From assembly GCF_013032855.1 (NCBI RefSeq), contig NZ_WQDA01000002.1:558001-622000 (forward strand): a stretch of DNA of 64,000 bases, read 5' to 3'. The notes under the pieces are model-generated. The model ran no database searches and was not told where the DNA came from. It worked only from the letters and a program-made list of their open reading frames with translations. This document shows positions 31,049 to 34,262 of this stretch, in pieces. Position 1 is the stretch's first letter. Each line of letters starts with the position of its first letter. This stretch comes from Ruegeria arenilitoris (lineage in GTDB: Bacteria > Pseudomonadota > Alphaproteobacteria > Rhodobacterales > Rhodobacteraceae). Position numbers and translations under genes: made by a program.

Positions 31049-32011
31049 TCAGCGCGCGCGCCGGGGTTTGGTGCGTTCCAGTTCGGGAGTGATCGGAATG
31101 AAATCGTCTTCGTCCCCCGGCGGCAGGTGGAAGGCGCCGTTGGCCCAATCGGCGGATTTCCATTCGCGGATCGCCGTTTCGATCTTGTCCTTCGAAGACG
31201 AGACGAAGTTCCACCAGATATACCGATCCTCATTCATCGTGGCCCCGCCCAGCAGCATCAGCCGCGCCCCCGCCGGCCCGGCAGTCACCGACAGGCGGTC
31301 ACCTGGGCGGAAGACCATCATGCGGCCTTCCTCGAACCGGTCACCCGCGATCTCGACCGAGCCCTGGGTGACGTAGACGCCCCGATCCTCATGATCGTCG
31401 GGCAGCGGAAACGCGGCGCCGGGATCCAGTTGCACGTCCAGATAGAAGATTTCAGACAGCATCGTGACCGGGCTGGTTTCCCCATAGGCCGAGCCGAGGA
31501 TCAGCCGGGCGCTGACACCGGCATCCTGGATATGCGGCAACGCGCCCTGCTTGTGATGTTCGAAATCGGGGGCCATGTCTTCGTGCGCTTCGGGCAGCGC
31601 GATCCAGGTCTGGATGCCGAACAGGCTGTGCCGCTTGGCGCGGGTTTCGGCGCTGGTGCGTTCGGAATGGGTGACGCCGCGGCCCGCGACCATCCAGTTG
31701 ACCTCGCCGGGATAGATCATCTGATGGGTGCCAAGGCTGTCGCGATGTTCAAACTCGCCCTGGTACAGGTAGGTGACCGTGCCCAGCCCGATATGCGGAT
31801 GCGGGCGTACGTCGATGCCGCCATCGGTGATGAACTCGGCCGGTCCCATCTGATCGAAGAAGATAAAGGGCCCCACCAACTGACGCTTGACCGAGGGCAG
31901 CGCGCGGCGCACCTCGAACCCGCCCAGATCGCGGGCGCGCGGGATGATCAGGGTCTCCAGCGCCGAACCTTCGCTGACGCATTCGGGGCTGTGGGTGGGG
32001 TTCCAGCTCAT
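31049..32011 (-). CDS. pirin family protein
   Basis: The 320-residue bicupin begins MSWNPTHSPECVSEGSALET. It carries the pirin metal site in DVRPHPHIGLGTVTYLYQGE and FEHRDSLGTHQ, with a further histidine in GRGVTHSER. The C-terminal cupin contains VYVTQGSVEIAGDRFEEG. Pirins bind iron and in bacteria act as quercetinases or as regulators of pyruvate metabolism; which applies is unknown. The ATG at 32011 is supported by GGAG six bases upstream. It is preceded on the same strand by the PhyH-type dioxygenase gene (102-bp gap). Confidence 0.92.
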   Translation of the reverse strand: MSWNPTHSPECVSEGSALETLIIPRARDLGGFEVRRALPSVKRQLVGPFIFFDQMGPAEFITDGGIDVRPHPHIGLGTVTYLYQGEFEHRDSLGTHQMIYPGEVNWMVAGRGVTHSERTSAETRAKRHSLFGIQTWIALPEAHEDMAPDFEHHKQGALPHIQDAGVSARLILGSAYGETSPVTMLSEIFYLDVQLDPGAAFPLPDDHEDRGVYVTQGSVEIAGDRFEEGRMMVFRPGDRLSVTAGPAGARLMLLGGATMNEDRYIWWNFVSSSKDKIETAIREWKSADWANGAFHLPPGDEDDFIPITPELERTKPRRAR

Positions 32012-32113
32012 GTCGGTCTCCAATCCGGTGCGGCAGGATGTTCACCCTTGCCAATCTAGCGCAAAATACCAGCGGACAAAGTGCATCTACGCACAGACAA
32101 GCTGCGCCCCGGA

Positions 32114-32956
32114 TCAGTCCTGTGCGCGGGGCCAGAGTTGCGGAAAAAACGGGCCGGCGATCCGGTCGCCCTCGGCATAGCCGGCGGCCTCAAACTGCGC
32201 CCGCTCCTCCTTGGCCCAATCGCCGCGATACCGGATCACCCCGTCCGGCCCGGTCATGCGCAGGGTGAAGCGGCGCACGGTTTCCGTGGGCGTGACCGAG
32301 GACAGCCCCCCGTGCAGCGTGCGCATGTCGAAATAGATGCAATCGCCCAGATCCAGGTCCCATTGCAGCAGGTCATAAGCGCCGGGATCGGCATTCACGT
32401 CCGGTGGCGGGTGATAGGTGCGGCCTGCAACCTGCGTGGGTTCATAGCTGGGGTGCCCGTCGGCGAAACGCACCCGCATGAACAGCTTGTCCCACAGGTG
32501 CGAGCCGCGCACGAAGGCGATCCCGTTGTCCTTACTGACCGGTTCAAGCGGCAGCCACAGCACGCACATCGAGCCTTCGAAATCGAAATAGGACAGGTCC
32601 TGATGGAATGGCGGGCGCGAGGTCGATCCGGCCTCGCGCAGGAACCAGTTGTCCATCACCAGATTGATCGGCACGGCGCCCAGCAACTCGGACGCGATTG
32701 ACGCACAGGGCGAGTTGCGGACGAATTCCTCGAACTGGGGGATCTTGCTCCAGGCCCAGTAATCCTCGAGATAGGCGGGCGCGTCCGGGTCCTTGGTGTG
32801 GCGGGTGAAGTTCTCGGTCGGGGTCTGCAGATCGGCGTCGATGCCCGCGCGCAGCAACTCCAGCCAGTCCGCGCTGAATTTCTGGCGCAGCACCACCGCG
32901 CCATCGCGGCGGAAGGCGGTGATTTCATCCTTGGTCAGCAGGTTGGCATCTGTCAT
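32114..32956 (-). CDS. phytanoyl-CoA dioxygenase (PhyH) family protein
   Basis: The 280-residue protein has the non-haem iron facial triad H118-x-D120 (RPPFHQDLSYF) and H215 (MRTLHGGLSS), with an arginine soon after (TVRRFTLR) to bind 2-oxoglutarate. It is therefore an active-looking Fe(II)/2-oxoglutarate hydroxylase. Substrates in this family range from phytanoyl-CoA to ectoine and small natural products, and no context gene narrows it here. It sits upstream of pirin and PanE-like genes on the same strand, but with gaps of 78-102 bases, so an operon is possible and not certain. Confidence 0.9.
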   Translation of the reverse strand: MTDANLLTKDEITAFRRDGAVVLRQKFSADWLELLRAGIDADLQTPTENFTRHTKDPDAPAYLEDYWAWSKIPQFEEFVRNSPCASIASELLGAVPINLVMDNWFLREAGSTSRPPFHQDLSYFDFEGSMCVLWLPLEPVSKDNGIAFVRGSHLWDKLFMRVRFADGHPSYEPTQVAGRTYHPPPDVNADPGAYDLLQWDLDLGDCIYFDMRTLHGGLSSVTPTETVRRFTLRMTGPDGVIRYRGDWAKEERAQFEAAGYAEGDRIAGPFFPQLWPRAQD

Positions 32957-33161
32957 CGGCTTCCCCCTTGGTGACGCAAGGAAAAGGATCGCACCCGAAT
33001 GGCGCAGGCGTCAAAGGTTATTGCCGTCTCGGTCCATTCCACGCGCTTTTGTCTGCAGGTCGGCCGGATTTTGCCCGGAACGCTCGGAATGAGTCGTGAT
33101 CGTGCTATTCTTCCACTGTGGCGGTTGGAACAGCTGCCGGGTCAGCACAGGAGAGGTTTCG

Positions 33162-33650
33162 ATGCCCGGAGATTCACTGAACCGAAGAACCATGCTAGTG
33201 GCCGGCACGGCGTTGGTTGCCACGGCCGGCAGCGGGCTGATTCTGCCTGCGCGGGCCAGTGGGTTGGCGCCGACCCCGTCGATGCGAGGCGGATCGAACA
33301 ACTACCGCCCGGGCGCGCCGATCGTCGACCGGATCGGCGGCGGCGGCTTCTGGATGACCGGCACCGTTCGGCAGGCCGGCGACGGCGCACCCCTGCCAGG
33401 TCAGCGCATCCAGATCTGGGCGCATACCACAGAAGGCCACGAGCGCGACCCGCAAAGCCACGGTGCCACCCTGACCGATGCGAACGGAGAATTCCGGCTG
33501 GAGATGCCGCAGATCGTGCCGGCCTTTGGTCAGCCGCATGGACATCTGGCCTATGACAGCGGCGAATTCGAGACCGTCTTCCTGCGCCCGATCATGTCCA
33601 GTGCGCGCGACAAGACCCTCGCCGCGCATTTCGTTCTGCAACCGGTCTGA
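33162..33650 (+). CDS. Tat-exported protein with an intradiol-dioxygenase-like (transthyretin-like) fold
   Basis: The 162-residue protein has a twin-arginine signal (NRRTMLVAGTALVATAGSG, R8-R9), so it is exported folded. The mature region resembles the beta-sandwich of intradiol dioxygenases (GAPLPGQRIQIWAHTTEGHE, ATLTDANGEFRLEMPQIVPA, then QPHGHLAYDSGEFETVFLRP). The two iron-ligand tyrosines of true catechol dioxygenases are not in their usual places (GHER replaces the G-x-Y region), though a HGH cluster is present. It may be non-catalytic or bind another metal or cofactor. GGAGAGG precedes the ATG. The stop is six bases from a di-haem membrane protein gene, so the two work together by inference. 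Confidence 0.75.
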   Translation: MPGDSLNRRTMLVAGTALVATAGSGLILPARASGLAPTPSMRGGSNNYRPGAPIVDRIGGGGFWMTGTVRQAGDGAPLPGQRIQIWAHTTEGHERDPQSHGATLTDANGEFRLEMPQIVPAFGQPHGHLAYDSGEFETVFLRPIMSSARDKTLAAHFVLQPV

Positions 33651-33656
33651 ACCACG

Positions 33657-34262
33657 GTGCCGCGCCCGGGCGTCCTTGCGGTCTGGCTGGCGTTGATCGC
33701 GGCCGTTGCGGTGCCCGTGGTGGTGGCGGGGTTCAGCCCGTATCTGGCCTGGCGCAGCCCGATCTACATCGCTGCGGGCTTTGCCGGAGTCATCGGGTTG
33801 GGATTGCTGCTGGTACAGCCGCTGCTGGCCGCGCGCATGTTGCCGGGGCTGACCGCGATGAACAGCCGAATGGTGCACCGCTGGGTCGGCATCGCCCTGA
33901 TCGCCATGATTGCCCTGCATGTGGGCGGGTTGTGGATCACCAGCCCCCCGGACGTGGTGGATGCCCTGCTGTTCCGGTCCCCCACCCCGTTCTCGGCTTG
34001 GGGCGTGGCGGCCATGTGGGCAGCGTTCGCCGCCGTTGTGTTGGCCGCGTTGCGCAGCCGGCTGGGATGGCGGTTCCGCCTTTGGCGGTTGGCCCATGCC
34101 AGTCTTGCGCTTGTGACCATCCTAGGCACGGTCGTTCATGCCCTGCTGATCGAGGGCGCAATGGAAACCGTCACCAAGGCCACATTGTGCGGGCTTGTAT
34201 TATTCGCCTGCGTCCGAGCGTTGATCAGATTGCAGGTCTGGGACGTGAAACCGCGGGGTTAA
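33657..34262 (+). CDS. ferric-reductase-like transmembrane haem b protein
   Basis: The 201-residue protein has about six membrane helices and two histidine pairs, H74/H88 (MVHRWVGIALIAMIALH) and H147/H161 (LAHASLALVTILGTVVH). Each pair is separated by 13 residues, the classical bis-haem spacing of ferric reductase and NOX-type transmembrane domains. It has no FAD- or NAD-binding domain, so it resembles YedZ/MsrQ-type electron carriers. It starts at GTG 33657, six bases after the preceding Tat-protein stop, implying a two-gene module in which electrons pass across the membrane to the exported partner. That function is inference. Confidence 0.82.
   Translation: MPRPGVLAVWLALIAAVAVPVVVAGFSPYLAWRSPIYIAAGFAGVIGLGLLLVQPLLAARMLPGLTAMNSRMVHRWVGIALIAMIALHVGGLWITSPPDVVDALLFRSPTPFSAWGVAAMWAAFAAVVLAALRSRLGWRFRLWRLAHASLALVTILGTVVHALLIEGAMETVTKATLCGLVLFACVRALIRLQVWDVKPRG

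Follow-up and report, generated by a model that had tools for sequence, protein, structure and literature searches.

The locus and its two genes

The window, that is, the whole stretch of 64,000 nucleotides of Ruegeria arenilitoris DNA that was analysed, carries two genes on the + strand with six bases between them, as seen both in the open reading frames and in a reading of the sequence. The first, denoted here gene A (33162..33650, + strand), encodes a 162-residue protein with a Tat-type signal and, apparently, the fold of the intradiol dioxygenases. The second, gene B (33657..34262, + strand), encodes a 201-residue, six-helix ferric-reductase-domain (FRD) protein with two predicted haem sites and without a flavin or NAD domain. 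Gene A runs from an ATG at 33162 to a TGA at 33648-33650 and gene B starts with a GTG at 33657, which confirms the six-base gap given in the earlier note on this DNA. A ribosome-binding site, GGAGAG (33150..33155, + strand), stands ahead of the ATG of gene A, and a likely promoter (33084..33111, + strand) is formed by TCGGAA (33084-33089), a spacer of 16 bases and TATTCT (33106-33111), with a TGC directly 5' of the latter that makes it an extended -10 element. A longer version of gene A starting at a GTG at 33096 was disfavoured, since this codon precedes the likely transcription start. The genes on either side (PhyH-like and pirin upstream, CHMI downstream) run on the opposite strand and, therefore, A and B probably form a transcription unit of their own. 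The pirin-family and PhyH-family genes (31049-32023 and 32114-32956, respectively, - strand) lie directly upstream of the pair.

Protein B, a six-helix membrane haem protein

Protein B belongs to the ferric reductase superfamily, as it matched the Pfam model Ferric_reduct (PF01794) with 36.6 bits, above the cut-off of 28. Its AlphaFold model (mean pLDDT 93.7) displays six long helices and no extra domain, in agreement with the proposal of the earlier note that a flavin domain is missing. Four histidines at predicted haem-ligand positions are found in two helices: H74 (33876-33878) and H88 (33918-33920) in helix 3 (33876..33920, + strand), and H147 (34095-34097) and H161 (34137-34139) in helix 5 (34095..34139, + strand). 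Thirteen residues separate the members of each couple, a spacing that had been noticed before. H74 and H88 were each present in 137 of 138 distinct sequences and H147 and H161 each in 135 of 138, the remaining one and three, respectively, lying outside the aligned piece. B is predicted to bind two haems. The segment TSPPDVVDALLFRSPTPFSA (residues 95-114; 33939..33998, + strand) is predicted to be a periplasmic loop and a likely place of contact with A, and residues 96-110 have a mean column conservation of 0.89. With the sidedness of the loops inferred from the Arg-rich ones and from FRD topology, the periplasmic loops scored 0.82, 0.89 and 0.94, the cytoplasmic loops 0.76 and 0.72, and the whole protein 0.71, a modest excess that fits the docking of A at the periplasmic face.

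The nearest folds retrieved with Foldseek for the B model were those of the NOX5 transmembrane domain, SpNOX, STEAP1, STEAP2 and cytochrome b561, with weak E-values (0.021 at best, and none reaching 0.001). The four-histidine haem layout is shared with NOX, as presented in PMC3591440, but B lacks a cytoplasmic FAD/NADPH domain. It also differs from YedZ, for which that source describes three haem histidines, whereas all four are kept in B. Within the alphaproteobacteria, membrane ferric reductases such as FrcB and FsrB of Bradyrhizobium japonicum represent another possible kin. For FrcB, a four-helix bundle is described, for both proteins a large periplasmic domain, and FsrB is placed in COG3182 (PMC8891985, PMC13038864 and PMC10760861). 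With its six helices and in the absence of a large periplasmic domain, B is set apart from both by these descriptions; its identification as FrcB was dropped on account of the four helices described for the latter.

Protein A: export signal and fold

The N-terminus of protein A, MPGDSLNRRTMLV, together with a cleavage-like A-R-A motif recognized by eye, delimits a Tat signal region (33162..33257, + strand) with the twin arginines R8 and R9, followed by a hydrophobic stretch (also by eye) and cleaved probably after A30-R31-A32. Both arginines are invariant in the 50 aligned relatives (50/50), and residues 1-35 evolve fast, with a mean distance of 0.526 compared to 0.164 for residues 36-162. Hence, judging from its sequence, A appears to be exported through the Tat system, as the earlier note had claimed.

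The family to which A belongs was less evident, because searches of Pfam, NCBIfam and the PDB by sequence yielded sub-threshold matches only. The best Pfam match was CarboxypepD_reg (22.1 bits, cut-off 32.3), Dioxygenase_C (PF00775) reached 18.8 bits for a cut-off of 27.3, so that A falls outside that family by this measure, and a weak match to DUF4198 gave 17.8 bits for a cut-off of 34. Among the 50 relatives, matches at E 0.01 or better were found to CarboxypepD_reg in 47, to Dioxygenase_C in 39 and to DUF4198 in 27, all of them below cut-off. The AlphaFold model of A is of moderate quality (pLDDT 71.5, pTM 0.64; range over five models 38.6-71.5). When it was compared with the PDB by means of Foldseek, the 41 best matches were intradiol dioxygenases (best E 4.5e-7), as were 49 of the 50 listed, the remaining one being a lipoxygenase; several of these rows are chains of one protein, and the query TM-scores range from 0.36 to 0.59. 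In addition, the alignment by hhalign of the 50 A relatives (set A1) with 16 intradiol-family proteins from related genomes (set A3) had a probability of 84.5% and an E-value of 7e-6. A thus appears, from the model and the profile comparison, to have the intradiol-dioxygenase beta fold, and the dioxygenase-like fold suspected in the earlier note is upheld.

A predicted tyrosine-free metal site

The iron ligands of protocatechuate 3,4-dioxygenase are Y408, Y447, H460 and H462. Protein A shares with the intradiol dioxygenases (PF00775) the fold, the core sequence G.P..g.riqiW...G and the P-H-x-H motif, but it differs from them in lacking both ligand tyrosines, in agreement with what had been suspected, and in the addition of a histidine. 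One and the same map was obtained with each of three MAFFT modes, for which the input consisted of 10 of the 50 A1 proteins, three divergent A proteins and nine of the 16 intradiol ones. E94 (33441..33443, + strand) falls on the first tyrosine column, aligned with Y112 of the intradiol protein L169 in all three modes (3/3), and V119 (33516..33518, + strand) on the second, aligned with Y151; H126-G127-H128 (33537..33545, + strand) represents the retained His-x-His pair, aligned with H157 and H159, and is the HGH cluster singled out in the earlier note; and H100 (33459..33461, + strand), the predicted extra ligand, is aligned with a phenylalanine, F130. The His-x-His and V119 columns were confirmed by hhalign, which opened a gap between H93 and E94, so the placement of E94 on a tyrosine column rests on MAFFT and on an equal count from the conserved Trp. 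The invariant E94 at this column and the added H100 go beyond what had been noted earlier.

Among 141 distinct A sequences, E94 is invariant (141/141) and H128 is kept in every one (141/141), H100 in 140 (the exception is H100R in L092) and H126 in 140 (H126R in L069); position 119 is Val in 134 and Ile in 7, and no sequence has a tyrosine on either ligand column. By contrast, the two tyrosines and the two histidines never vary in nine intradiol proteins (set A4), this set being 9 of the 16 A3 proteins, with L184 and L185, among the seven omitted, lacking the second tyrosine and the full His-x-His. Two further residues of A, H88 and E91, are kept in 134 of the 141 sequences and were dropped as candidate ligands because a divergent subfamily of seven has Ala and Leu at these places. 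On these grounds, E94, H100, H126 and H128, picked from conservation and alignment, are predicted to cluster in space, and A is predicted to hold a tyrosine-free metal site made of three histidines and one glutamate.

As far as the alignment goes, A is not an ordinary intradiol dioxygenase, the ligands being lost. That it might still cleave rings, acting as an intradiol-type dioxygenase on exported or catecholic substrates with B as an accessory, would be in line with the retention of the fold and of His-x-His, and with the existence in the same genus of intradiol proteins with Tat-like signals (L169, L170, L176 and L183). The lack of tyrosines on the ligand columns in all 141 A sequences, against their invariance in the nine A4 proteins, makes this alternative very unlikely. 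These four proteins, which are part of set A4, carry the full set of intradiol ligands, and no match to B was found beside them in the short loci examined.

Distribution and conservation of the pair

The check proposed in the earlier note, namely the conservation of the pair, gave a positive answer. A strong match to A (E 3.5e-51 or better) was found in 48 of 198 genomes of the family and a strong match to B (E 3.7e-25 or better) also in 48 of 198, the two sets of genomes being identical (Fisher p 3.6e-47); as genomes share descent, neither these counts nor the p value reflect independent events. In total, A matched 50 family genomes, from which G086 and G093, weaker, were left out on E-value, and B matched 53, with the weaker G062, G181, G037, G047 and G026 left out in the same way. 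At the level of the class, A was found in 5 of 240 genomes and B in the same five. In one genome (G159), A and B are on different contigs, each near a contig start, and in G148 and G120 there is an in-frame stop within B.

B adjoins A in 137 of the 139 A-holding loci that were fetched, a number that includes places fetched twice and corresponds to 123 different A proteins and 121 different B proteins, and the gap between the genes is 1-25 bases in 129 of these 137. Of the two exceptions, L046 stops at a contig end and L105 is a second A copy in G184, where B is represented by a 38-residue match in a 66-residue open frame. The second A copy of G184 (L217, G184:C1:3217500-3219200) coexists with another that forms a full pair.

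Of 398 sampled genomes of the phylum, 23 gave a match, 20 of them strongly and all of these in the same class, the three remaining matches being weak (E 4.6e-4 to 7.3e-4) and outside it. Two of the latter, L140 and L142, were taken as chance because the open reading frames listed there run on the other strand, and the third, L141, looks like a catechol dioxygenase placed, as judged by eye, between muconate-cycloisomerase-like and LysR-like genes. A profile search of 249 genomes of the phylum gave nine matches, all inside the class, and the eight plasmid records found are all from alphaproteobacterial genera. The scan of genome contigs detected at least 553 relatives, of which the best 80 were used, so that more distant ones may exist; among the matches listed, the named relative closest to A is that of Silicibacter lacuscaerulensis ITI-1157 (99% identity).

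The two proteins evolve at different rates, with a mean distance of 0.164 for mature A (residues 36-162) versus 0.431 for B, although wear at their four-fold sites is about the same (0.590 and 0.620, respectively). As mature A changes little in spite of such wear, it is strongly constrained and not merely recently spread. The distance matrices of A and B have a correlation of 0.55 (permuted maximum 0.18), but with species relatedness uncontrolled this value was given no weight in the argument. A constraint of this magnitude could also be accounted for by protein contacts, as would be the case if A had no redox metal and served as a subunit for the assembly, capping or regulation of B. Metal-free subunits with the intradiol fold do exist, such as the alpha subunit of protocatechuate 3,4-dioxygenase, and the ligand geometry in A is a prediction, which leaves room for this explanation. 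However, the four candidate ligands persist in the divergent subfamily that loses the nearby H88 and E91, and we regard such a subunit role as quite unlikely.

Gene neighbours

When the 54 non-Ruegeria loci were clustered free of an overlap filter, and with the off-frame open reading frames over the pair disregarded in the ranking, A was found in 54/54 and B in 52/54, and no further gene was detected that is conserved together with A and B in these loci. The commonest additional cluster, of ABC-ATPase type, appears in 14 of the 54, on either strand and at varying distance, and the neighbours recurring at fixed positions in about 20 loci are almost entirely from Ruegeria. Given the lack of a conserved third gene outside Ruegeria, the pair moves as a two-gene unit.

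These data bear on the notion that the pair serves metal uptake, with B reducing ferric or cupric ions in the periplasm and A, an iron-binding helper, handing over or accepting the metal. Some MsrQ-like clusters include the ferrous transporter VIT1 (PMC8238504), and a Caulobacter PepSY/DUF2271/DUF4198 operon, reminiscent of the weak DUF4198 match of A, is linked to iron (PMC12004947); moreover, a copy of the pair on a Rhodovulum P5 plasmid is near genes for haem uptake and ExbB/ExbD/TonB. Nevertheless, no transporter or receptor gene conserved beside the pair was found in the 54 loci outside Ruegeria, and the very strong conservation of mature A also speaks against a role of this sort, which we consider unlikely. 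The plasmid copy (L144) also has genes for a cytochrome b/b6-domain protein and a c-type cytochrome in its vicinity.

Relationship to MsrPQ and to flavinylated partners

The earlier note had compared the pair with MsrPQ (YedYZ), and the likeness holds as an analogy: in both cases, a periplasmic protein is encoded beside a six-helix FRD haem protein without a flavin domain. It fails as an identity. MsrP is a molybdoenzyme, and A matches no MsrP model. B had no match in NCBIfam, the MsrQ equivalog model included, and the genome possesses a separate MsrPQ (L188, 1888-3409; NCBIfam NF003767 with 453 bits and NF003831 with 154 bits). Membership of A-B in MsrPQ was consequently rejected. In PMC3591440, YedY is likewise described as a molybdoenzyme.

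A combination of a membrane haem protein and an exported partner is also found in MsrQ-like flavinylated clusters and in PepSY/DUF2271/DUF4198 operons (PMC8238504 and PMC12004947), from which A-B differs by the absence of a conserved third gene and because ApbE is not required. By analogy with the FMN-carrying partners of MsrQ-like proteins, A could be flavinylated by ApbE at T103, within S-H-G-A-T, as the stretch S99-H100-G101-A102-T103 resembles the motif [S/T]GA[S/T] given in PMC8238504. Yet, this stretch carries an extra His with respect to the motif, reading SHGAT, or NHGSV in the divergent subfamily, and T103 is replaced by Val in seven of the 141 sequences. Furthermore, flavinylation is disfavoured by the finding of 17 among the 48 pair genomes with no match to ApbE, 15 of the 17 having a completeness of 90% or more, and ApbE does not occur more often in genomes with the pair than in those without it (odds ratio 1.09, p 0.86), which renders this explanation hardly credible.

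A proposed electron-fed periplasmic module

The observations can be integrated by assuming, with a probability of about 0.55, that A and B constitute a two-gene transmembrane redox module in which B feeds electrons to A, an intradiol-fold metal protein devoid of the ligand tyrosines. We infer that the pair carries out redox chemistry, and the metal in A, the geometry of its ligands, the direction of electron flow and the substrate are likewise presumed parts of this module. B would receive electrons at its cytoplasmic side or from quinol and pass them along two haems, first the inner (H74/H147) and then the outer one (H88/H161), and from there to A, docked at the conserved periplasmic loops. 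A would fold before its Tat export, probably with the metal already bound. In it, the tyrosines that hold Fe(III) would be replaced by a site composed of E94, H100, H126 and H128, and the loss of the tyrosinates should favour a reduced metal and weaken the preference for Fe(III). Unlike true intradiol enzymes, A would then need an outside source of electrons, namely B. Such a need for a donor, arising from the replacement of both tyrosinates, would explain the strict pairing with B. Thus fed, A could activate O2, with an organic substrate, or act as a reductase on a substrate in the periplasm, for which reactive oxygen species and ferric chelates are candidates.

A more specific proposal, put forward tentatively and at somewhat less than even odds, is that the intradiol scaffold became an electron-fed periplasmic metalloenzyme by exchanging both of its tyrosinates for Glu and His, so that a self-sufficient Fe(III) enzyme would have turned into a 3-His/1-Glu centre powered by a dedicated di-haem reductase in the membrane. 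If true, this would add a third kind of FRD partner to the molybdenum (MsrPQ) and flavin (ApbE) types, amount to an undescribed route for redox chemistry outside the inner membrane, and represent the rewiring of a catabolic iron fold as a membrane-powered reductase or oxygenase. According to PMC3591440, FRD proteins without a dehydrogenase are numerous and mostly of unknown function, YedZ being in 2013, to the knowledge of its authors, the only one characterised among 1,755 bacterial homologues. No description of the A-B pair was found in the open-licence PMC literature. A small, strict and well-conserved pair with predicted ligands makes one case of FRD function directly testable.

Sequences upstream of the pair in related loci

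The motif GGAA-N14-GCTA was present in 47 of 140 upstream regions, compared to a mean of 0.4 over 20 shuffles, although the 47 are not independent cases, as many are from Ruegeria and some places are represented twice; no motif was seen in the other upstream regions. At the position of the likely promoter of gene A (33084-33111), a probable promoter of the form TCGGAA-N16-TATcTT, with a fixed spacing of 14 bases from GGAA to GCTA, is common to Ruegeria and some other genera.

A palindrome, TCAC-N6-GTGA, was found in 28 of 129 upstream regions (mean 0.55 over 20 shuffles), about 80-150 bases upstream of gene A (for instance, in L030 and L071), and is absent from the window itself; it is possibly the site of a regulator. 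Its commonest form, TCACGAAACCGTGA, had exact matches in 19 of 198 genomes, versus 5 with the reversed control, with no clear common set of genes. In two genomes (L190 and L196), this exact form stands before genes that, as judged by eye, are desaturase-like.
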